The position numbers and the translations under genes were made by a program. From a virus, in the IMG/VR virus record IMGVR_UViG_3300045996_001004, positions 1-32,415 of that record: a stretch of DNA of 32,415 nt; one strand, 5' to 3'. The notes under the pieces are model-generated. The model was not told the origin of the DNA and did no database searches. It worked only from the letters and a program-made list of their open reading frames with translations. Positions 7,708-17,879 of the stretch are shown here, one piece after another; positions within the stretch are counted from its first letter, which is position 1; every line of letters starts with the position of its first letter.

Positions 7708-7709
7708 TT
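7690..7709 (+). repeat. Dispersed 20-base repeat, copy 3
   Basis: Perfect copy of GTGGGATGGTGTGATGGGTT, overlapping the stop codon of the 194-aa minus-strand gene. Confidence 0.75.
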
Positions 7710-8292
7710 ACTCCGTAGGTTCGTACTTGATTAGCGGCCCGTCTGTAATCGTCAAGCCGCCTGCACTGATACCCAGATCGGGACCGTCAACGGGAATCTC
7801 CTGATCGGGTGTGATTGTCTTGCGGGTGTCTAGTCCGACGCTCACGCTACCTTCACGTTTAAAGTTACGTGCAGCGTGTGTTTCGTTGGAGAACGGGTTA
7901 CCACGGCGTAACAGCGTCCGATCACCGCGCCACGTCATACGTTGATCCGTTACTTCCACAATCGCCCCGGTAACACGGTCGATCTGTTTACCGTGGATTG
8001 CTTCCGTTTCCATCGGTGCCCGCCGACGTTCTAGCCCTTGTTGCTGAGTGACCGACCGACGGGGCACTATGTGTGTGTCCTCGTGTTCCTCAACTACGGA
8101 ACAATCGAACAGTTTCGCGGCGTCTACCAGTCGGGCCGTGGTACTGGTGCCGTGTCTGCTATGGGTATGTCCCAAGTGTGTACCGGACGGCAAGCCGCCG
8201 ATCTTGCTGTGTATGTCGTGCAATCGTTCGCGCTCGTGCTGAGTCAGGCGGCGATTGCTACCGCCACGTTTGCCACGTTTGCCGTTACTCAT
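7708..8292 (-). CDS. Hypothetical protein with C-terminal ISAGGLTIT motif, 194 aa
   Basis: I recognise no family. The first 45 residues are very basic and Gly/Arg/His-rich (SNGKRGKRGGSNRRL). The middle is charged, with a TQQQGLERRRAP stretch, and the C terminus is strand-like. Residues 175-183 read ISAGGLTIT and are followed by exactly 11 residues. The same nine residues, also 11 from the end, occur in the 213-aa protein at 8832-9473, transcribed in the opposite direction. It is the leftward gene of the divergent pair and has its own terminator. No close ribosome site is seen (GGGAG is 16 bases away). Confidence 0.75.
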   Translation of the reverse strand: MSNGKRGKRGGSNRRLTQHERERLHDIHSKIGGLPSGTHLGHTHSRHGTSTTARLVDAAKLFDCSVVEEHEDTHIVPRRSVTQQQGLERRRAPMETEAIHGKQIDRVTGAIVEVTDQRMTWRGDRTLLRRGNPFSNETHAARNFKREGSVSVGLDTRKTITPDQEIPVDGPDLGISAGGLTITDGPLIKYEPTE

Positions 8293-8316
8293 GGTTGTGT
8301 GAGTGATGCTCCCGGC

Positions 8317-8336
8317 GTGGGATGGTGTGATGGATG
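8317..8336 (+). repeat. Dispersed 20-base repeat, copy 4
   Basis: GTGGGATGGTGTGATGGATG, matching the consensus except at the end. It lies just upstream of the leftward gene's start. Confidence 0.7.
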
Positions 8337-8678
8337 CTCCCCGGGCATAGCTCGCGCTACGTTACAGGGGGGCGCGGGTCGCAGCCGGGGTGCCCGTCGA
8401 GGGGCGCGAAGTGGAACCCGGCGAGAATCGCACGGCTCGGCCCGGCCGTCAAGCGGTCCCGCCCGGTTTTTCGACCGGCCCGCGAAAAAAAGTTTCGTCC
8501 ACTTTTCAGGACACCCGGCAGGCGGGCAGCGCTGGACCCCACACGCGCCACGATGCCCCGTAAACCGCTCAGGATGGCTCAGGACGCGCGAACCGGCCCC
8601 GGTGCGGTGTCTAGCTCCCCCCGTCTTGTGCGCCGTTCCTGCGGCCCGTGGCTCGGTCGGACTCGGGGACGGCTGAGC

Positions 8679-8698
8679 GTGGGATGGTGTGACGGGTT
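8679..8698 (+). repeat. Dispersed 20-base repeat, copy 5
   Basis: GTGGGATGGTGTGACGGGTT, one change from consensus. It is followed by a hairpin, a T-run and a promoter, the recurring cassette order. Confidence 0.75.
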
Positions 8699-8700
8699 CA

Positions 8701-8735
8701 GCCCCGCTATGCATAGGGGCGGGCGGCGTGTTTTT
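8701..8735 (+). terminator. Possible weak terminator
   Basis: GCCCC...GGGGC (8701-8720) with an inner TATGCATA palindrome is followed 10 bases later by TTTTT. The spacing is long for a classical terminator, so the call is tentative. Confidence 0.35.
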
Positions 8736-8739
8736 CCAC

Positions 8740-8769
8740 TTGACGGCCCCGGCCCACTGTCTGTAAGCT
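8740..8769 (+). promoter_or_regulatory. Promoter of the 213-aa gene
   Basis: TTGACG and TAAGCT are separated by 18 bases. The TAAGCTGGCG end is identical in the promoter at 10993-11021, which strengthens the call despite a weak -10. Confidence 0.5.
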
Positions 8770-8831
8770 GGCGGGGACAAGACAACACGGCGCAATCGAG
8801 CGCCATCACACAACGTCAACAGCGAGGCAGT

Positions 8832-9473
8832 ATGAGCAGAGACAAAGGCAAGACGAACGGCGGCAACGGAGCGGTAGCGGACGCTATCAACAAGGCGATG
8901 GCTGACGCGGCACAGAACACGGCGGCGGTCGTGGACACGGGCGGGGACGTGGACCTGTCCGCACTCGCGGGGATCGGCTCGACCGACGAGGACACCGAAG
9001 GCGCGGGCGCCACAACGGACGATGACGATCTGGACCCGAACGCCAACGTGTGGGATCGGCTGATTCAGGGCTGGAGCTTCGCCCCGGCAGCGGCCCGCCC
9101 CTTCGACAACGAGAAGAAAACGCAGCGGACGCAGAAGATCGCGGACGTGACGGTGTTGCTGCGGGGAGGCTTCGGGTACGTGCCGGGAGCGGTGAAGCTG
9201 GTGCAGGCGCTCGTCAACGGCGCCCCGCACGGGGAAACGATGCTCGATTTCAATTTCTTCTCGTCGCTCACGAGCACGGCACTCCGCCCCATCACCGACC
9301 GCGCCAAGGTGGATCTCGTCCTGATGCGTCAGCGCATCGCGGCGGATTACCTGAAGTGGCGGGAGGCCAACCCACAGGCGGCAATCGCCACGGCCCGCGC
9401 CGAAACGCGCATCTCGGCGGGCGGACTCACGATCACGATGCCGGAACCCGCGAAGCCTGCGGCAACGGCCTAG
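8832..9473 (+). CDS. Hypothetical protein with C-terminal ISAGGLTIT motif, 213 aa
   Basis: Not recognised. Residues 1-75 are polar and acidic, ending in a TTDDDDLDPN run. Residues about 75-190 are likely folded, with aromatic strands and a final helix (AKVDLVLMRQRIAADYLKWREANP). Residues 194-202 are ISAGGLTIT, with 11 residues after them, as in the divergent 194-aa protein. I start at the ATG at 8832 (GAGG five bases upstream, downstream of the promoter). The frame is open far upstream only because of GC bias. A strong terminator follows at once, so it is a single-gene unit. Confidence 0.8.
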   Translation: MSRDKGKTNGGNGAVADAINKAMADAAQNTAAVVDTGGDVDLSALAGIGSTDEDTEGAGATTDDDDLDPNANVWDRLIQGWSFAPAAARPFDNEKKTQRTQKIADVTVLLRGGFGYVPGAVKLVQALVNGAPHGETMLDFNFFSSLTSTALRPITDRAKVDLVLMRQRIAADYLKWREANPQAAIATARAETRISAGGLTITMPEPAKPAATA

Positions 9474-9482
9474 CTCGACTGA

Positions 9483-9517
9483 ACCGGGATCACCTTGGCG
9501 GGTGGTCCCGGTTTTTT
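9483..9517 (+). terminator. Rho-independent terminator
   Basis: ACCGGGATCACC pairs over 12 bases with GGTGGTCCCGGT around loop TTGGCG and runs into TTTTTT. Confidence 0.92.
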
Positions 9518-9540
9518 CGTTTGTACGGCGCCCGTGCTGC

Positions 9541-9671
9541 ATAAGTAAATTTACTTACGGGTTACGTAATCGGTCCACTTACGTAAGTTGTCCAGATACG
9601 TAAACGGGCAGGTTCGCGCACCCGTAAGCCGTTGTAAGTGAACCGCTTACGTAAGTGGCCAGAAGTTTACG
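9541..9671. repeat. Cluster of TTACGTAA-type palindromes
   Basis: Within 130 bases lie TAAGTAAATTTACTTA (9542-9557), TTACGTAA (9562-9569), ACTTACGTAAGT (9577-9588), TACGTAAAC (9597-9605), CCGTAAGCC (9622-9630), TTGTAAGTG (9632-9640), GCTTACGTAAGT (9645-9656) and AGTTTACGC (9664-9672). All are built on the half-site GTAAGT/ACTTAC. It may be a multi-operator region or an iteron-type origin. Confidence 0.7.
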
Positions 9672-9769
9672 CCCGCCACCTGAACCGGGCAAGCGGAAAC
9701 TGGACCGTTCCGGTATGTAGCCGATTCATACACGGTGTGAATGCTCCCCGAACCCGGCCATATTCGCCC

Positions 9770-9789
9770 GTGGGATGGTGTGATGGGTT
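9770..9789 (+). repeat. Dispersed 20-base repeat, copy 6
   Basis: Perfect copy of GTGGGATGGTGTGATGGGTT, followed by TTTTCCCGG and a hairpin. Confidence 0.75.
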
Positions 9790-9971
9790 TTTCCCGGCAT
9801 TTCGGCGGGTTTTCGGGTTTTTGCCCGATGGCACGGCCTGTGAAGTGTGGGAGGCGGGGCAGTGTGCGCCGTGGTAACGGTGCGGTCCGAACTGCTTGAC
9901 CGTGGTTGATGGGCTGAGCCGGGTGCTACGCTGCCCCGTTGGGCAATTCAGCCCGCTAGGAGGTTGTATCT

Positions 9972-10622
9972 ATGCCAGAAGTGACCCTCGAAACCCTGAA
10001 CGCCGCTGCCAAGCGGCAGGTGCTGGCGCTCCGGCGTCCCGTAATGGATGCGGCGCGGCAATTCGGGGCGGTGCGGGAACGGCTCTCCGACTTGGCCCCC
10101 AAGATCGTGAAGCTGTTCAACATGATCCTCGCGGACAACGAAGCATTCACGTTCGTTTCGTTCGTCCGGCTGTTCGATCCCACGGTCCCCACGCACGCGG
10201 CGGACCGGAACGGCGAGACAGGTTACCGGAATCACCGGACCTACTACACCCTCGCATACATGCGCCGTCTGGTGCAGTTGCAGGGCACCCGGCGGCGGAC
10301 ACCCGGCGGCGTACGGGACAGCGCAACCGATGCACTGGCGCGGACGTTGGCGACCGTGCTGCAAGTGGTCGAGGACTCGGAAGCCGTGTGGCACGCGATT
10401 CAATCCGAGTTTCAATTCACCGAACGCCTGATGACGCGGTTGCGGAAGCGGGTAGACGCAACCAAGCCGCTGATCCAGCTGGAGCCGACACGCCGCGCCA
10501 CGGTCAGCGTGGGCAAAGTGATCCATATGGAGCGGACGGAACCCACGCAAGCGGAAGCGGCCCAGGCCGACACCATCGAGGCCGACACACGCGGCACACG
10601 CAAGCGGGCACGTGCAGCGTAG
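9972..10622 (+). CDS. Hypothetical protein, 216 aa
   Basis: Not recognised. It is largely helical and Arg/Ala-rich: an N-terminal helix pair (LNAAAKRQVLALRRPVMDAA), a hydrophobic core near residues 40-70 (KLFNMILADNEAFTFVSFVRL), and a basic C-terminal tail ending RGTRKRARAA after an acidic TIEADT stretch. AGGAGG lies eight bases before the ATG, one of the best ribosome sites in this block. It lies immediately right of the palindrome cluster, so a DNA-binding or replication-initiator role is worth testing, but no helix-turn-helix is evident by eye. It ends in TAG. Confidence 0.78.
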   Translation: MPEVTLETLNAAAKRQVLALRRPVMDAARQFGAVRERLSDLAPKIVKLFNMILADNEAFTFVSFVRLFDPTVPTHAADRNGETGYRNHRTYYTLAYMRRLVQLQGTRRRTPGGVRDSATDALARTLATVLQVVEDSEAVWHAIQSEFQFTERLMTRLRKRVDATKPLIQLEPTRRATVSVGKVIHMERTEPTQAEAAQADTIEADTRGTRKRARAA

Positions 10623-10713
10623 CGCGGCCCAACTCGACGCCGGGGCAGGTTCGTAAGCCTGTCTCGGCGTATCTCTCACCCGTTGACGCGACACATAACG
10701 AACCGAGGCACCT

Positions 10714-10920
10714 ATGGTGATGCGTGACGAGAGTTCCCCTTTACATGAACGGCTGTCCAAGCTGCTGGATCAACAGCACCGCACCCCGGACGGGCGGGTG
10801 CAATGCTGCGAATGCCCACGGGCGGCAGTAGAACGGAGCACCGACGATCAACAGGTCCGCTGCCGGGACTGTTGGGAGCGGCACCGCTTGCGGTTTCGAC
10901 GGGTAGACCGGCGCGTGTGA
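10714..10920 (+). CDS. Small zinc-ribbon protein, 68 aa
   Basis: Two C-x2-C pairs (CCEC at about residues 31-34 and CRDC at about 50-53) flank an 'ERSTDDQQVR' linker. The tail is Arg-rich (ERHRLRFRRVDRRV), the usual layout of a small nucleic-acid-binding zinc ribbon. GAGG precedes the ATG by five bases. The stop TGA lies within a dispersed-repeat copy. Confidence 0.75.
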   Translation: MVMRDESSPLHERLSKLLDQQHRTPDGRVQCCECPRAAVERSTDDQQVRCRDCWERHRLRFRRVDRRV

Positions 10921-10932
10921 CGGTGGGATGGC
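10915..10932 (+). repeat. Dispersed repeat, divergent copy 7
   Basis: GTGTGACGGTGGGATGGC overlaps the stop codon of the zinc-ribbon gene and is followed by a GTGTGGGG/CCCTACAC hairpin (10936-10959) and then a promoter. Confidence 0.5.
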
Positions 10933-10935
10933 TCT

Positions 10936-10959
10936 GTGTGGGGATCTGCGACCCTACAC
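10936..10959 (+). terminator. Hairpin, possible weak terminator
   Basis: GTGTGGGG pairs with CCCTACAC (eight pairs, one G-U) around ATCTGCGA. There is no immediate U-run, so termination is uncertain. Confidence 0.35.
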
Positions 10960-10992
10960 GGGGCCGTTTCGTCTGTACGGGTATGTTTTTTG

Positions 10993-11021
10993 TTGACTAC
11001 TTACGTAAGTGGGCATAAGCT
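10993..11021 (+). promoter_or_regulatory. Promoter with operator palindrome in its spacer
   Basis: TTGACT, 17-base spacer, TAAGCT. The spacer contains the perfect 12-base palindrome ACTTACGTAAGT, so a bound regulator would directly cover the RNA polymerase site. Confidence 0.65.
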
Positions 11022-11374
11022 GGCGCGGGCAGCATACACACGGCGGACGGCAAGGCAAACGGAGTGCTGCGGGCGCACCGGCAAGCTAGCACAGGACTGT
11101 GCACAGCCTAGAATCCGGTCTTTCCCCGCGCACCACTAACGGAGGCCGCGCTATCCGCTTCGACACGGGGCGAGGATCAGGAACCAAGAGGCGGGATCGG
11201 GTACCGGGGCCGGATGCATACGGCGTCGGTCTGCCCCAAGCCGCTGCGGTAAGACGCTCCCCCGTGTCACTGCCCCTTGTTTGTCGGCCCGCTTCCGTAG
11301 CCAGAGGCTAACCAAAGTAGCTGCAACGTAGCGAAACGGGCGGGGCGGGCCTTTTTTCGCTAGGAGGTCACGTT

Positions 11375-11743
11375 ATGCGATGTGCAATTTGCGGCGGCAG
11401 CGGACCGGATCGGGATCTGCGGATGGTCGTCCGGGACGATTACGAGGCGGTACAAGGCACGTATCCGCCGGATGTGATCCACAACCCGGAACACGCGGCA
11501 GCACTGGGCCGGATGTGCGGGCTACTGGATCGGCTGGTCGATCCGTTGGCGCGGGTGGAGTGCAAGCCGTGCCGGGTTCAGCAAGCACGGGAGCGGGAGG
11601 CCGAGGCACGGGAACACGCCGAGGCGCGGGGCGAGTACGACGGGGAAACGTTGGGGCGGACGTATCACGATGTAGTGCAGCGGTCCCGGCTCCGGGTGCT
11701 GCGGGCACACCTCGTGCGGCTGTATGGCTCACGGGTGCATTAA
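11375..11743 (+). CDS. Zinc-ribbon/coiled-coil hypothetical protein, 122 aa
   Basis: C-x2-C pairs occur at the N terminus (RCAICGG) and near residue 64 (ECKPC), followed by a long Arg/Glu/Ala helix (QQAREREAEAREHAEARGEY) and a basic end. The first pair resembles the knuckle of HNH-type or zinc-ribbon proteins, but the catalytic HNH residues are not evident. AGGAGG lies seven bases before the ATG. It is the first gene of a run of overlapping small genes to 12535. Confidence 0.75.
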   Translation: MRCAICGGSGPDRDLRMVVRDDYEAVQGTYPPDVIHNPEHAAALGRMCGLLDRLVDPLARVECKPCRVQQAREREAEAREHAEARGEYDGETLGRTYHDVVQRSRLRVLRAHLVRLYGSRVH

Positions 11744-11760
11744 GGGGGAGGGATCAGACC

Positions 11761-12012
11761 ATGCGGCTACTACACCCGTTAGCGTGCCCTGAGCACGGGT
11801 ACCAACGGCTGGAAACGTGTGACATTTGCGTAGACGCCGCGCACCGGGAGCGGCAACTACAGCACTCGGAGGGACCGAATCAAAAAACACTCTGCGGCCT
11901 GCCGGTAGCGATGGCGGTCACCGGCCCGGTCCCGGCAGACTGGGCACGCTGCGGCGACTGTGACCGCTTGGCGAAGCTGCGGGAGGTAAGACAGGCGGTG
12001 GGCCATGTTTAA
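11761..12012 (+). CDS. Small cysteine-rich protein, 83 aa
   Basis: It contains C-x2-H (CPEH), C-x2-C (CDIC), a lone LCGLP and CGDC near the C terminus, which is enough for one or two zinc sites. GGGAGGGATCAGACC precedes the ATG, so the ribosome site is good. It overlaps the next gene by eight bases. The segment between the knuckles, ending TGPVPADWARC, is seen in small actinophage zinc proteins; that likeness is only an impression. Confidence 0.7.
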   Translation: MRLLHPLACPEHGYQRLETCDICVDAAHRERQLQHSEGPNQKTLCGLPVAMAVTGPVPADWARCGDCDRLAKLREVRQAVGHV

Positions 12013-12211
12013 CGTGCCCCACTACAGCATCATCAGAGCCACTGACGGGCGGACCTTTGGTTACTCCCTGCACGGTGACAGCGCTAGTGATTTGGCACGG
12101 GGGCTGAGCCTGTATTACCCAAACGTGGCCTTTGTCGTCTACCGGCACGGCGGCACAAGCCCCAAGGCGATAGCGTTTCGCGCCGTCAATGGACGGTTAC
12201 AGCAATCTTAG
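12005..12211 (+). CDS. Hypothetical alpha/beta protein, 68 aa
   Basis: Strand (HYSIIRATDGRTFGYSL), helix (SASDLARGLSLYY), strand (VAFVVYRHGG) and a final strand make this a small compact alpha/beta protein. It starts inside the end of the preceding gene, a translational coupling arrangement, and ends in TAG. No motif is recognised. Confidence 0.7.
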   Translation: MFNVPHYSIIRATDGRTFGYSLHGDSASDLARGLSLYYPNVAFVVYRHGGTSPKAIAFRAVNGRLQQS

Positions 12212-12220
12212 GGAGGCATC

Positions 12221-12346
12221 ATGTTGGACCGGTTACGGGACGGTTACACCCGGTTTCTCATGCGACGGATGGACCGCTGCCAAACAGAGCGCGGCTTACG
12301 GTTCTGGGAATGGATCGCAGTGCATACCACGGCGGCGGATTACTGA
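12221..12346 (+). CDS. Small basic protein, 41 aa
   Basis: GGGAGG four bases before the ATG opens a 41-residue peptide with basic, Arg-rich helices (LDRLRDGYTRFLMRRMDRC) and a Trp-containing second helix (LRFWEWIAVH). It ends in TGA. The strong ribosome site and close packing between genes support it. Confidence 0.6.
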   Translation: MLDRLRDGYTRFLMRRMDRCQTERGLRFWEWIAVHTTAADY

Positions 12347-12361
12347 CGGGGAGGTGAGCGT

Positions 12362-12535
12362 ATGGATAAGCGGCAAGCCGTCAAGCTCACGATCACGGTA
12401 AGCGGTGAAACTGACCGAGACCCGTGGGAATGGGCGGAAGGAATCGCCCGATCCTTAGCGGATGATTTGAACGCCGCTAACGGGGAGGGATGGCCCCCGA
12501 TCACTGTCGAAGCGACTGACGCTGAACCGGTGTGA
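12362..12535 (+). CDS. Hypothetical protein, 57 aa
   Basis: GGGGAGGTGAGCGT precedes the ATG. The protein has a strand (AVKLTITVSGET), a helix (EWAEGIARSLADDLNAA) and a second strand (ITVEATD), suggesting a small beta-alpha-beta fold. It ends in TGA inside a dispersed-repeat copy, and a terminator follows. Confidence 0.65.
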   Translation: MDKRQAVKLTITVSGETDRDPWEWAEGIARSLADDLNAANGEGWPPITVEATDAEPV

Positions 12536-12547
12536 TGGTGGGATGCT
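12530..12547 (+). repeat. Dispersed repeat, divergent copy 8
   Basis: GTGTGATGGTGGGATGCT overlaps the stop codon of the 57-aa gene and lies directly before the terminator. Confidence 0.5.
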
Positions 12548-12549
12548 TT

Positions 12550-12580
12550 GGACCGGCCCTAGTGGTCGGTCCGTTGTTTT
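12550..12580 (+). terminator. Rho-independent terminator
   Basis: GGACCGGCC pairs with GGTCGGTCC (one G-U) around CTAGT and is followed by GTTGTTTT. Confidence 0.75.
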
Positions 12581-12596
12581 GTACGGCGGTTTTAAG

Positions 12597-12625
12597 TTGA
12601 CTACTTACGTAAGTGGGCGTATTCT
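12597..12625 (+). promoter_or_regulatory. Promoter with operator palindrome in its spacer
   Basis: TTGACT, 17-base spacer, TATTCT. The first 16 bases of the spacer, including ACTTACGTAAGT, are identical to those of the promoter at 10993-11021, so the two units are co-regulated. Confidence 0.68.
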
Positions 12626-12672
12626 CGCGGCGCGGCCGTTTCACACACACAAGCGGCCCGGAGGATACCGAC

Positions 12673-13017
12673 ATGCAGAATGCAGACGTGAGACAAGATC
12701 CGGCGACGACGCCCGTAAGTTTCTTGCGGGACGGGTACGGCAACCTGATCGAGCGGTTCGAGCGGGACGGGATCGTAGACGTGCGGGTAACGCTCGCGGA
12801 CCGGATCGAGCGGGCCATCCTGCCCAACGATCACGAGATGCGGGAACGGTGCAAGCTGACGGTCGTGCGGTGGTACTGGCGCCGGGTGGGAGTGCTGCCG
12901 GAGTCGCCCGCCGATGCCCTGCCGGATGAGGCGCCCGAGTCCAACGCCCACCGCCGCGAGTGCGAGCACGGGTACACGTCCAACTGTCGGGCCTGCAACC
13001 CGGACGGGCCGTTCTGA
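12673..13017 (+). CDS. Hypothetical protein with C-terminal CxxC-type knuckle, 114 aa
   Basis: I start at the ATG at 12673 (GGAGG eight bases upstream, downstream of the promoter). The frame is open upstream but that part would overlap the promoter. The body is charged and mixed, with FLRDGYGNLIERFERDGIVD and a VVRWYWRRVGVLP segment. The last 20 residues (CEHGYTSNCRACNPDG) form a C-x-H/C-x2-C knuckle likely to bind zinc. It overlaps the next gene as TGATG. Confidence 0.72.
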   Translation: MQNADVRQDPATTPVSFLRDGYGNLIERFERDGIVDVRVTLADRIERAILPNDHEMRERCKLTVVRWYWRRVGVLPESPADALPDEAPESNAHRRECEHGYTSNCRACNPDGPF

Positions 13018-13292
13018 TGGCGGCGCGGAAGCGGATCGGGTTCGTGGCGGCGCCCCGTGTCGGCTCGGGTTACTGGCTGCACTACACAGCCCCGGAGCGC
13101 GAGGACGACGGGCAGGGGGCCGTCGTCGGGCACGAAGAGCGGATTCACTACTGCGCCACGCTGCGGATTGCCAAGCGTAAAGCTCACCGGGTGATGGCGG
13201 ACCCCGAGGTGACGTGGGCGACCATCACGAAACCGCTGTTTCACGTCCGCAGAATGCCCTACAGGGCACGCAAGCGGGCAAGGAAAGGGTAA
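13017..13292 (+). CDS. Basic hypothetical protein, 91 aa
   Basis: The ATG overlaps the upstream stop (TGATG). The protein is beta-like at first (IGFVAAPRVGSGYWLHYT), contains an acidic turn (EREDDGQG) and ends in a strongly basic tail (MPYRARKRARKG). It may bind nucleic acid. Not recognised. Confidence 0.68.
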   Translation: MAARKRIGFVAAPRVGSGYWLHYTAPEREDDGQGAVVGHEERIHYCATLRIAKRKAHRVMADPEVTWATITKPLFHVRRMPYRARKRARKG

Positions 13293-13295
13293 GGC

Positions 13296-13391
13296 ATGGT
13301 CTATCTCGTCGCGGCGCTGGTGTGGCTGATAGCGGGCGGCGTGTTTGCCTCCGTTTTCGGTCGCGTGGCAAAAACCTACGGGGGAGACTGA
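13296..13391 (+). CDS. Single-pass membrane peptide, 31 aa
   Basis: A 31-residue frame starts four bases after the previous stop, with AAAGGGTAAGG upstream. It is mostly one hydrophobic helix (VYLVAALVWLIAGGVFASVF) followed by GRVAKTYGGD, so the C terminus is probably cytoplasmic. It is small but well packed between genes. Confidence 0.55.
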   Translation: MVYLVAALVWLIAGGVFASVFGRVAKTYGGD

Positions 13392-13396
13392 CACCC

Positions 13397-13612
13397 ATGC
13401 TCTACGGCATCGCACTCGGACGGCTCTGTATGCCGGTGGAATACATCCGCCAGCTACCCACCGCACTAGCCGGGAAGCACCTGATCGGGATTGCGACCAC
13501 GGTAGAAGACCTGATGACTGCTCAGGCGCGGGCGGCACGCTTGGCCCGGCCGATTAACACCTACACTCGCGTTACACCCCACGGCACCCTGCACGGCATC
13601 TATCGGCGGTAG
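13397..13612 (+). CDS. Hypothetical protein, 71 aa
   Basis: GGGGGAGACTGACACCC precedes the ATG. The protein is mixed alpha/beta: GIALGRLCMPVEYIRQL, then a helix rich in Ala/Arg (DLMTAQARAARLARP) and a strand end (YTRVTPHGTLHGIYRR). Not recognised. It ends the run of small genes before a 458-base gap. Confidence 0.65.
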   Translation: MLYGIALGRLCMPVEYIRQLPTALAGKHLIGIATTVEDLMTAQARAARLARPINTYTRVTPHGTLHGIYRR

Positions 13613-13827
13613 CTGGCCTACAGACCGCCCTGCAAGTTTGCTCCCCGGCAGCTAGCAATCCCGCTAGCACCCCCACGGCTCGGCCTCACGGTCAGCCACA
13701 CTCGCAGGTGAGGGGGCCGGGGAGCATCCCGCCTGTACGGCCTCACCACGCGCCCGTAAGCCGCACCACGCGCCCGCCAGCGGTCCCGGTTGCCCTTTGC
13801 TGGCTCGCCTTGAGCGGCTCAGGTCCG

Positions 13828-13847
13828 GGGGGATGGTGGGATGGCTT
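13828..13847 (+). repeat. Dispersed repeat, divergent copy 9
   Basis: GGGGATGGTGGGATGGCTTG, related to the consensus mainly in the GGATGGTG core. Confidence 0.4.
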
Positions 13848-13907
13848 GGGGCAGGGGGCCGGATGGCTGAGCCACACGCGCAGGCCCGGTTTTGTTGGGG
13901 TTTTCGG

Positions 13908-13927
13908 GTGTGATGGTGTGATGGGTT
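13908..13927 (+). repeat. Dispersed 20-base repeat, copy 10
   Basis: GTGTGATGGTGTGATGGGTT, one change from consensus, about 100 bases before the promoter candidate. Confidence 0.7.
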
Positions 13928-14011
13928 CACGGGGGGATCAAGATGGCCGGGTGTGCGGGCCGTGCTGCTCGACAATTCTGCCCGTTTCGGGAAGCGGACA
14001 AGTGTTTTTCC

Positions 14012-14070: not shown

Positions 14071-14223
14071 ATGTGGAACGTCTTTTGGTCGTATCCGGGT
14101 GGCGGGCGCGAAGCGTGGGCGTGCTGTGCGAAGAAACGGGACGCCGAGGTAATCGCGGCGTTGCTCAGGGATCATGGTTGCGCGGACGTGCGGATCGTTC
14201 GCTATCAGAAAGGGCGTGCGTGA
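14071..14223 (+). CDS. Hypothetical protein, 50 aa
   Basis: AAGGGAG lies seven bases before the ATG. The peptide resembles a small beta-alpha-beta unit (NVFWSYPGGGREAWACCAKK, then a helix RDAEVIAALLRDHGC and a strand VRIVRYQKG). It ends in TGA overlapping the ATPase start (TGATG), so the two are translationally coupled. Confidence 0.7.
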   Translation: MWNVFWSYPGGGREAWACCAKKRDAEVIAALLRDHGCADVRIVRYQKGRA

Positions 14224-15326
14224 TGACTGGACAGGATTTGCTGACACAGTGGACGGCGTTCATTCGACAGTACGTGTATTGCTCGCAGGCGCAAGGCATG
14301 GTCCTCGCGTTGTGGGCTATGAACACGTGGGTGTATGAGCATTTCGCGGCGGTCCCGTACCTGGAGATTGTTGCGAGGACCAAGGAGAGCGGCAAGACAA
14401 CGGTGTTGGATGTGCTCAAGATGCTTTGCCGAGGCCCGGAGAAGTTTGCGATTGTCCGGGTGCTGACGATCCTGCGGATGATTGAAGAGTCCGAGGGGAA
14501 GATCACGATCTTGATTGATGAGGCGGAACAGTTCAGCAAGCCGTCATTGGGCGAGACTCGGAGCGGTATCGCGACGGGTTACAAGCCGGGTGCTCAGCAC
14601 GCTATCAGCGTGGGCAAGGGCTTTCAGCGGTTCAGGACGTATGCGCCGTGGGCGTTCGCGCAGATCGGCAACGTGCATGATGTGTTGCGGTCGCGGTGCA
14701 TCGAGATCATGCTGGACCGGGGCAAGCCGGAGCGGTACTTGATCGATTACGAGATGTCCGCTAAATCGGACGCTCAAGAGCTTGTCGTACAGTTCGTGCA
14801 GTTCGCCCGGTCCAAGGTGAAAGACGGCAAGATGCACATCCCGATTATCCCGGCTGACTGGCTCACGAGCGGCCGTGAGCGGGAGTTGTGGACGCCGTTG
14901 GTTTCGTTGGCCGGGTGGCTTGGGGTTCATGCCGATACCATGCGGCAGATACAGGCCGCAAGCGTAGACCTTGGGCTGCTCAAGACGCTACCGCCGATCA
15001 AGTGGCACTCGGCGCAAGACGAGGCCGATACCGAGGAACGGGATATGGCCGTCCGGCTGTTGCGGGATCTGGCCAGCGTGATTACGCCGGCTGACGAGGG
15101 CGTCATCTTCTCGCGTGATGCCGTGGAACGGCTCAGGGCTATCGACACGGCGCCTTGGCGTGGATGGCGTGGAACGGGCATCAACGAGATTGGGCTTGGC
15201 GCTCTGCTGCGGCGGTACGGGCTGGAGAGTGCAACGCAAAGCAAGGGCAAGGGACGCAAGGGGCGCGTGCAAGCGCAGGGCTACAAGACAGCGGAGATTC
15301 TTGCGGCGCGCAAGCGAGACGAGTAA
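14223..15326 (+). CDS. DUF3631-type P-loop ATPase (putative replication helicase), 367 aa
   Basis: A Walker A variant ARTKESGKTT sits at residues 51-60 and a Walker B ITILIDEAE at 94-102, followed by an IGNVHDVLRSRCIEI sensor-like strand. The C-terminal third (around LRAIDTAPWRGW...LGALLRRYGLES...QGYKTAEILAA) matches the pattern of DUF3631, a domain found in phage, plasmid and island primase-helicase proteins. No primase domain is fused here. The likely role is DNA unwinding or loading, which is inference. I start at the ATG overlapping the preceding stop. A strong terminator follows. Confidence 0.8.
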   Translation: MTGQDLLTQWTAFIRQYVYCSQAQGMVLALWAMNTWVYEHFAAVPYLEIVARTKESGKTTVLDVLKMLCRGPEKFAIVRVLTILRMIEESEGKITILIDEAEQFSKPSLGETRSGIATGYKPGAQHAISVGKGFQRFRTYAPWAFAQIGNVHDVLRSRCIEIMLDRGKPERYLIDYEMSAKSDAQELVVQFVQFARSKVKDGKMHIPIIPADWLTSGRERELWTPLVSLAGWLGVHADTMRQIQAASVDLGLLKTLPPIKWHSAQDEADTEERDMAVRLLRDLASVITPADEGVIFSRDAVERLRAIDTAPWRGWRGTGINEIGLGALLRRYGLESATQSKGKGRKGRVQAQGYKTAEILAARKRDE

Positions 15327-16222: not shown

Positions 16223-16406
16223 AGCAGTTCAGGACTATCTGTTTAAGGTCTACTTAACACAGATGTTACAGGGGTTTGAGAAGCAATGGGCATCCCAGCC
16301 GACTCCAATCTATCTCCCCCAGCCTTCCATGCAGGAATGGCACGTGTTCATAGATGATTTCGTAGACAGTATTCTAGATAAGGAACCAATTGAACGAAGA
16401 CGGTAA
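16215..16406 (+). CDS. Hypothetical protein, 63 aa
   Basis: The GTG start at 16215 overlaps the preceding stop by eight bases, with GGAG upstream. The protein has an aromatic N-terminal helix (VQDYLFKVYLTQMLQGFEKQW), a proline-rich linker (SQPTPIYLPQPS) and a helix with acidic residues (FIDDFVDSILDKEPIE). It overlaps the terminase ATPase start by 17 bases. Function unknown; possibly packaging-related by position. Confidence 0.7.
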   Translation: MNKAVQDYLFKVYLTQMLQGFEKQWASQPTPIYLPQPSMQEWHVFIDDFVDSILDKEPIERRR

Positions 16407-17232
16407 GCTAGTAGTCACGCTCCCAGACGGTAAACTCGAAACAATGTACGAGCCTACCTCTGAGAAACACATGTGGTTTCACCAGACCCCTACCAAAAAC
16501 CTTTTGGCATACGGGAATAGAGGCGGGGGAAAGAGCCATTTGCTCCGCTTTGACGCCCATATGAGGGCGCTTAGCGTCCCGGGCTCCCGCCTAATCCTCA
16601 TTCGTAAGACGTATCCCCAGCTTTTGCAGTCTCATTTGCAGTATATTCCGCAAGAGATGGCGAAACTGGGTGGACACTACCACAAAACAGAACATATTGC
16701 GTATTATCCAAACGACTCCAGACTGTTCTTCTCGCACGTAGCGACCGAAGAGGACTCTCTGAACCTGTTGTCTGCGGAATATATCGCTGCATACTTCGAT
16801 GAGTTGTCTACGATCTCGTGGGACTTCTTCGTAAAGCTGTGTGCATCTGTTCGTATCGGCGGCAAGTTGAAAGATATGGGGATTAAGGGCGTCGTGAGAG
16901 CAGCGACTAATCCCCTTGGGCCTTCTGCTGCTGAAGTTTTCTCTTATTTCGTGAACAAGGACGTTCCACCAGAGGACGATGCGGACTACGATCCACGGGA
17001 TTGGGACTCAATCAAGATTCAGATGGCCGATAACGCTCATATCGACATCGAGGACTACAAAAAGAGATTCGCTGGTATGCCTTCGTATCTGAAAAAGGCG
17101 TGGTTAGAGGGCGATTTCGCGCTGGAGAACCAGTTGTTCGACTTCAAACCAATCAAAGACGGTAGACAATACCACGTTATCAAGGAAATGCCGACGATTA
17201 ACGGCAAGCCATTGGTAGGAGTAAGCTGGTAA
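16390..17232 (+). CDS. terL: Terminase large subunit, ATPase half, 280 aa
   Basis: Walker A is GNRGGGKSH (residues 42-50) and Walker B is IAAYFDE (132-138), with the coupling motif AATNP near residue 185. This is the ATP-driven DNA packaging motor domain. It begins at a TTG with AAGGA five bases upstream, inside the end of the previous gene. It ends in TAA, overlapping the next ATG by one base (TAATG), so the ATPase and nuclease halves are separate ORFs in different frames. Full-length TerL proteins usually have about 450-550 residues, and the sum of the two halves is 495. Confidence 0.92.
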   Translation: MNEDGKLVVTLPDGKLETMYEPTSEKHMWFHQTPTKNLLAYGNRGGGKSHLLRFDAHMRALSVPGSRLILIRKTYPQLLQSHLQYIPQEMAKLGGHYHKTEHIAYYPNDSRLFFSHVATEEDSLNLLSAEYIAAYFDELSTISWDFFVKLCASVRIGGKLKDMGIKGVVRAATNPLGPSAAEVFSYFVNKDVPPEDDADYDPRDWDSIKIQMADNAHIDIEDYKKRFAGMPSYLKKAWLEGDFALENQLFDFKPIKDGRQYHVIKEMPTINGKPLVGVSW

Positions 17233-17879
17233 TGGATTTACAGTGGCATCAGCACGAGTCAGTGCAGATTTACAGGGGCTTCGACCTTGGATTCTTCCCA
17301 GATCCTGCTTACTGTGTCTGGGTAGCGCACATCGGTAACCGTTTCATCGCCTTCAAAGAGAAGCTTTGGTATCAACAGGTTGCTCCAGACATCGCAAAGG
17401 ACATCGTAGAAGAGTCTAGAGGCATGAAAGTCGCCATGACTTACTGCGATCCGGTCATGGACATCAAGACAGCGGCCGATGTTCGCAGCATCAGGGAAAT
17501 CTTCGAAGAGAATGGCGTCCCGATGGAGGCCAGCATCAACAACCGAGAGCACTACGCACATGCCGTGCACACAGCGTTGAAGGAAGAGGTAGCGCCGGGG
17601 GTTCCAAGGCTACAAATTCTGGAAAGAACACCGGGTTTCGGGGACATGGGTTGTCCATATCTGATAAAGACCATTCCTCAGATGCGTTTTGACCCCAAAC
17701 ACCCTCTTAGAATGGCAGACAGTCGTAACGACCACGGGGTTATCGCTTTAGCGTATTTCTTAATCAGTTCGGGTGCAGTAGAACGTCGCAGTGTTGCAGC
17801 CATCAACAAGTTGCCTAAGTGGATGCGACCGAAATACGAAGCCAAAAAAGACAAATTCTTAGGATACAATCAACCATAA
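17232..17879 (+). CDS. terL: Terminase large subunit, nuclease half, 215 aa
   Basis: This is the RNase H-fold nuclease that cuts DNA at packaging. The acidic triad is visible: D18 in RGFDLG, D73 in YCDP and D167 in SRNDHGV, followed by the IALAYFL helix. It starts at an ATG overlapping the ATPase stop (TAATG), an arrangement for termination-reinitiation. The N terminus (DLQWHQHESVQIYRG) is the region that normally joins the two domains, so this is a split gene. No intron or insertion separates the parts. Confidence 0.9.
   Translation: MDLQWHQHESVQIYRGFDLGFFPDPAYCVWVAHIGNRFIAFKEKLWYQQVAPDIAKDIVEESRGMKVAMTYCDPVMDIKTAADVRSIREIFEENGVPMEASINNREHYAHAVHTALKEEVAPGVPRLQILERTPGFGDMGCPYLIKTIPQMRFDPKHPLRMADSRNDHGVIALAYFLISSGAVERRSVAAINKLPKWMRPKYEAKKDKFLGYNQP

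Follow-up and report, generated by a model that had tools for sequence, protein, structure and literature searches.

A nonapeptide common to the C-terminal tails of two divergently encoded, non-homologous phage proteins: a possible lineage-specific docking motif

Results

Genes and features of the locus

The window, the whole stretch of 32,415 bases analysed here (G000), is a contig of an uncultured tailed phage; the terminase, portal-position, and major-capsid genes lie at its right. P0002 (7708-8292, minus strand) encodes a family-less protein of 194 aa, and P0001 (8832-9473, plus strand) encodes a protein of 213 aa with a low-complexity N-terminus, a predicted beta-domain (residues about 78-141), a helix (156-179), and a low-confidence tail. 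The plus-strand reading frame of P0001 is open from 8331 and its first ATG (8334) would give 379 aa, but the ATG at 8832 is the likely start because GAGG lies just upstream and the homologs have short N-termini. The divergent intergenic region between the two starts (8293-8831, 539 nt) contains two GTGGGATGGTGTGA(T/C)GG repeats, at 8317 and 8679, and a palindrome, CCGCTATGCATAGGGG, around 8704-8719. Directly after P0001 stands a strong, intrinsic terminator-like hairpin (9481-9514, plus strand; 15 pairs and a T tail), and the conserved next gene is P0003 (9972-10622, plus strand), which is 62% identical in the related record G002. A DUF3631 ATPase-like protein with visible Walker A/B motifs is encoded at 14214-15326 (plus strand). 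Its gene is close to P0001 in four records (the window, G002, G013, and G042), where it marks a likely replication module.

The module around P0001 is rich in GC (8-14 kb, about 0.62-0.66), and the one around P0002 is lower (mostly 0.48-0.54 by kilobase); the P0002 gene itself has 0.57 GC. The GC-rich block (8001-14000; about 0.5 elsewhere) coincides with the plus-strand early module, and this base composition is suggestive of a mosaic origin. Separately, a dispersed repeat, GTGGGATGGTGTGATGG (0-3 mismatches), occurs in ten copies between 4697 and 13924, where 0.05 would be expected by chance (sites 4697, 6987, 7690, 8317, 8679, 9770, 10915, 12530, 13828, and 13908). All ten are on the plus strand, whichever way the genes run; the early region has most of them, and P0002 is flanked by copies. 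The repeat was not found in the checked G002 or G013 loci, and L028 has one match with 3 mismatches. In the window, two ORFs that overlap by one base (TAATG), one for the ATPase and one for the nuclease, encode the terminase large subunit (16390-17879); relatives such as L017 have a single ORF, and L025 also seems interrupted near the same place. In L028 (G013), about 1 kb of intervening sequence (about 424-1473) separates aligned residues 78 and 80 of the terminase ATPase region, and this insert may be an intron, an intein, or a homing element.

A nonapeptide common to both C-termini

Translation bore out the starting observation of the first-pass annotation: both proteins carry ISAGGLTIT followed by exactly 11 residues, P0002 ending in ...GPDLG-ISAGGLTIT-DGPLIKYEPTE and P0001 in ...RAETR-ISAGGLTIT-MPEPAKPAATA. 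The codons are ATC AGT GCA GGC GGC TTG ACG ATT ACA in P0002 (7744-7770, minus strand) and ATC TCG GCG GGC GGA CTC ACG ATC ACG in P0001 (9411-9437, plus strand). As had been claimed, six of the nine codons differ; 18 of 27 nucleotides are identical and all nine differences are synonymous. The remainder of the two proteins was said to be dissimilar, and we likewise saw no evident similarity outside the motif; beyond it, two tail residues coincide (K at +6 and T at +10).

In simulations that encoded the nonapeptide independently, drawing codons from the usage of the respective gene and module, 19.9 +/- 1.8 bases and 2.9 codons were identical, as compared with 18 and 3 observed. Each copy also matches the codon bias of its own gene and surroundings, with a motif GC3 of 0.89 in P0001 and 0.56 in P0002 against whole-gene values of 0.85 and 0.58. 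The observed identity is about that expected of independent coding and thus leaves no residual DNA homology, and the codon differences rule out a recent duplication, which the first-pass annotation had also dismissed. Since the differences are synonymous, the codon bias is local, and the 18 of 27 identities fit independent coding, the identity of the nonapeptide is a fact at the protein level: it was either long kept by selection or gained independently.

Frequency of such matches

In the curated set of 42 window proteins (8098 aa), ISAGGLTIT is the only shared k-mer of at least 7 residues (7-, 8-, or 9-mer). From composition alone, a genome would be expected to have 4.5e-4 shared 9-mers; the figure falls to 1.3e-6 when the C-terminal offset must also be equal and to 6e-8 when, in addition, the genes must be adjacent. 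As an empirical control, 897 phage ORFs from the window and related records were compared for 9-mers in pairs without BLAST similarity. Across genomes, 1 of about 369,000 dissimilar pairs had a common 9-mer; within genomes, 3 of 32,902 did, and P0001/P0002 is one of these three. The sole cross-genome case is ITAGGLTIT in two repetitive fiber-like proteins, which suggests that the string comes from a favored class of beta-sequence and that the composition estimate is somewhat optimistic. Statistically, the match between P0001 and P0002 is non-chance, and coincidence at equal offset in adjacent genes is unlikely unless the scan is very large. Other within-genome dissimilar pairs with an exact 9-mer occur in G014 (L097; MGARPSSFK) and G001 (L091/L092; PTPMEQELL), where the string lies at or near the N-termini of called ORFs.

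Homologs and gene order in related phages

P0001 and P0002 matched nothing in Pfam, PHROGs, NCBIfam, or PDB sequences and were absent from 50,697 phage records (tblastn, INPHARED); tblastn of INPHARED with three of their homologs also gave no match. When viral and genome contigs were scanned directly for proteins closely related to P0001, P0002, and P0003, only G002 came up. Further relatives were recruited via the major capsid protein (MCP, 20 loci) and the terminase large subunit (TerL, 35 loci), some 55 loci, the whole records being searched and the profiles iterated locally. The pair was found in only three of these, and G042 has a weak P0001-like protein alone (E 0.26), plausible by its position beside DUF3631. 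In G002, whose MCP is 81% identical to that of the window, the same divergent layout is present with about 510 nt between the two starts, and the P0002-like protein (E 1.5e-23, 39% identity) and P0001-like protein (E 8.6e-8) are both matched. In G013 the two stand in tandem, with the P0001-like gene ahead of the P0002-like one. The former was initially chosen by eye from position and tail, and profile matches to it are circular since it was already in the alignment. In G034, also tandem, the P0002-like protein is an independent profile match (E 1e-14) and the P0001-like member was chosen by eye. The homologs are distant (18%-39% identical). In G013, and by eye in G034, the gene after P0002 is zinc-finger-like; in the window and G002 such a gene lies near P0002. 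In G005 and G022, different genes precede the P0003 homologs.

P0001 and P0002 are real genes that belong to no known family. Four phage records have the two linked, in divergent orientation in the window and G002 and in tandem in G013 and G034. The pair thus makes up a linked unit on the early/replication side, an assignment that is secure for the former two records and probable for the latter two.

The motif in relatives and elsewhere

ISAGGLTIT is absent from the homologs in G002, G013, and G034 and from the G042 candidate. The P0001-like tails read NGITAGTTIKRSNAAVAVDADEF (G002), VLAGTTVRPSEIKADAVVYSDDDLISLGLMEANTPKPAAV (G013), TPQAISVTGVELDMSLSN (G034), and TMTAGKGKATDADYESDTITV (G042), and the P0002-like tails EPMVEIVLGPALDDDE (G002), VPIMDNLEIDRLNLDYNDL (G013), and VPVDPIRPEISLDLDNDG... 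(G034). Loosely related strings do occur in the P0001-like tails, namely ISVTGVELDM (G034), ITAGTTIK (G002), and ISLGLMEANTPKPA (G013), but the resemblance of ISVTGVELDM in G034 and ISLGLM...PKPAA in G013 to the window tail is not significant (shuffle fractions 0.23 and 0.06). P0001-like and P0002-like tails within one record do not resemble each other significantly either (0.10 in G002, 0.98 in G013, and 0.16 in G034). As the motif is absent and the tails are not significantly alike in these three records, nothing points to shared tails as a property of the family. Co-divergence of tails within genomes was considered and rejected: the diagonal was the best of 24 permutations, but this was driven by the window, without which the signal was negligible, and the other pairs were not significant.

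An exact-pattern scan of 2.9 million viral contigs returned no other SAGGLTIT, and none near a C-terminus. Twelve of its 14 matches were ITAGGLTIT, nearly all internal to repetitive, fiber-like proteins and one cut off by the contig end, which again points to a favored beta-type sequence. Three loci (L003, L007, and L010) encode short proteins with tandem 'TAGGLTVTAGGLVVTAGGL' repeats that are apparently fiber- or structure-like.

These results divide the earlier claims. Conservation at the protein level holds for the identity itself and fails in the homologs; three related phages have both proteins without the tag. The first-pass annotation also held that relatives lacking the tag, or the motif being widespread at unrelated internal positions, would make the match chance. 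The former is what we found and the latter is half true, since the near-identical ITAGGLTIT is internal elsewhere but exact SAGGLTIT is not. However, chance does not follow, as the expectation for coincidence within the genome stays at about 1e-6. Relatives without the tag limit any conserved role and leave the statistics untouched.

Predicted structure

AlphaFold2 monomers of P0001 and P0002 were built from three-sequence alignments and both models are poor. That of P0001 (pTM 0.52) has a beta-domain and a long helix with pLDDT of about 60-79 and draws the motif as a small hairpin in a low-confidence tail; P0002 is poorly predicted (pTM 0.17). In both of these shallow, overall poor models the tail pLDDT is below 50, and the tails are probably disordered. 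Foldseek searches of the P0001 model against PDB and BFVD returned no match at E<=0.001. The predicted beta-domain and helix were also checked against single-stranded DNA-binding proteins (SSBs): Foldseek again gave nothing at E<=0.001, and profile searches of Pfam and PDB were likewise empty; from architecture and neighborhood, an SSB-like role of P0001 is only a guess.

Discussion

We propose that ISAGGLTIT is a lineage-specific short linear motif (SLiM) carried on the disordered tails of two non-homologous, functionally linked proteins, and that the two tails would most likely bind the same surface; we place this reading at slightly under even odds (about 0.45). That surface might belong to a third protein of the replication/early module that both tails contact, or it might be the beta-domain of P0001 itself, in which case P0002 would dock by copying P0001's own tail. 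The motif would have been gained or fixed in the lineage of the window. This reading is favored by the exact match of nine residues in neighboring genes, equally far from both C-termini (about 1e-6 expected for the genome, and rare in real phage pairs), the all-synonymous differences, the low pLDDT of the tails, the linkage of the pair in four records, and the proximity of P0001 to DUF3631 in four. The T7 replisome tails provide a precedent. Weighing against it, the motif pair is seen in one genome and the homologs lack it, and ISAGGLTIT belongs to a G/A/S/T-rich beta-sequence class that recurs in fiber proteins. A more specific and doubtful version is a two-protein tail-mimicry switch in the early/replication module, in which the peptide would be a private, uncharged beta-strand C-terminal tag, P0001 would bind itself via its tail, and P0002 would join or compete for the same groove.

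The match could instead be a coincidence between two independently evolved beta-type tails. Small-residue strings like [IV][ST]AGGL[TV][IV]T would be favored, and a large scan would sometimes give an exact match. The recurrence of ITAGGLTIT in unrelated fiber-like proteins and as the only cross-genome 9-mer match between non-homologous proteins of the control set speaks for this explanation, as do the relatives without the motif and the related strings already held by the family tails (6% of shuffles reach the window-tail alignment in the case of G013). Against it stand the expectations of about 1e-6 for the genome at equal offset and 6e-8 for adjacent genes, so that even 10^5 scanned windows would still yield about 0.1 equal-offset cases. 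As the motif is not conserved, any role is lineage-specific or not essential, and coincidence stays alive as an account that we regard as unlikely. Somewhat less probable still is that an old illegitimate recombination event placed a copy of one gene's end on the other gene and that purifying selection kept both copies. The equal distance from the stop and the coinciding K and T after the motif fit such an event, but the synonymous sites look saturated, serine is encoded by AGT in one copy and TCG in the other, and similarity is not evident beyond the motif. Moreover, copying would still need selection at the protein level and would explain the origin of the motif, not its function.

The first-pass annotation had suggested a targeting tag, a protease site, or a virion-inclusion signal and could recall no signal of this form. 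We also found none, and nothing specific favors any of the three. We know of no protease site of the ISAGGLTIT type. A protease site or degron timing the removal of both proteins would suit a near-C-terminal position in probably disordered tails, but with no phage protease identified that recognizes the string, and no conservation of the motif in the homologs, we consider it the least probable of the explanations weighed here. A virion-inclusion, assembly, or encapsidation signal, in which a cargo-loading-like C-terminal peptide would bind the HK97-fold capsid, is scarcely more probable. Short C-terminal peptides with hydrophobic residues around glycine do load HK97-fold encapsulins (PMC7925596), but the GSL core and nearby basic residue are absent, both genes are on the early/replication side away from the capsid genes, and G002 lacks the peptide despite its closely similar MCP.

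Should ISAGGLTIT serve for docking, it would connect two orphan families of phage proteins, and a 20-residue peptide would be a testable handle on the partner. More generally, looking for exact k-mers common to non-homologous proteins encoded by one phage offers a usable and statistically clean route to functional links.

Comparison with known systems

Cargo-loading peptides of encapsulins are short, C-terminal, composed of glycine and hydrophobic residues, and common to otherwise unrelated cargo proteins (PMC7925596), and the window peptide shares these traits. Unlike them, it is without the GSL core or the C-terminal Arg/Lys pattern, is followed by 11 residues, and is encoded in genes unlinked to a shell gene. 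We rejected an encapsulin-type targeting peptide on this ground, as the GSL-type core and nearby basic residue of the T1/T3 peptides are lacking (PMC7925596). Convergent SLiMs, as sought by SLiMFinder, span 3-10 residues and occur where unrelated proteins have disordered tails (PMC1989135). ISAGGLTIT is such a short stretch (3-10 aa) and recurs above chance in non-homologous proteins, but it consists of two instances in one genome, with no pattern conserved across orthologs, whether in the G002, G013, and G034 homologs or in the G042 candidate (18%-39% identical).

Among known systems, the docking precedent comes from phage T7: in its replisome, the SSB gp2.5 carries a tail similar to the one that the helicase-primase gp4 uses on the polymerase gp5. 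The acidic C-terminal tails of gp4 dock on basic patches of gp5 (PMC12593628). As in T7, non-homologous proteins of one phage would dock on one partner in the window through short, probably disordered C-terminal tails. The T7 tails are acidic, whereas ISAGGLTIT is uncharged and beta-type; the window tails end in MPEPAKPAATA and DGPLIKYEPTE and do not show the acidic C-terminus with an aromatic or hydrophobic end that marks SSB-Ct/T7-type tails. Only the P0001-like tail of G002 (...VAVDADEF) comes nearer to this acidic, terminal-Phe form. The pair is a plausible instance, in a single genome, of a known kind of arrangement, the shared docking tail, in two orphan families.
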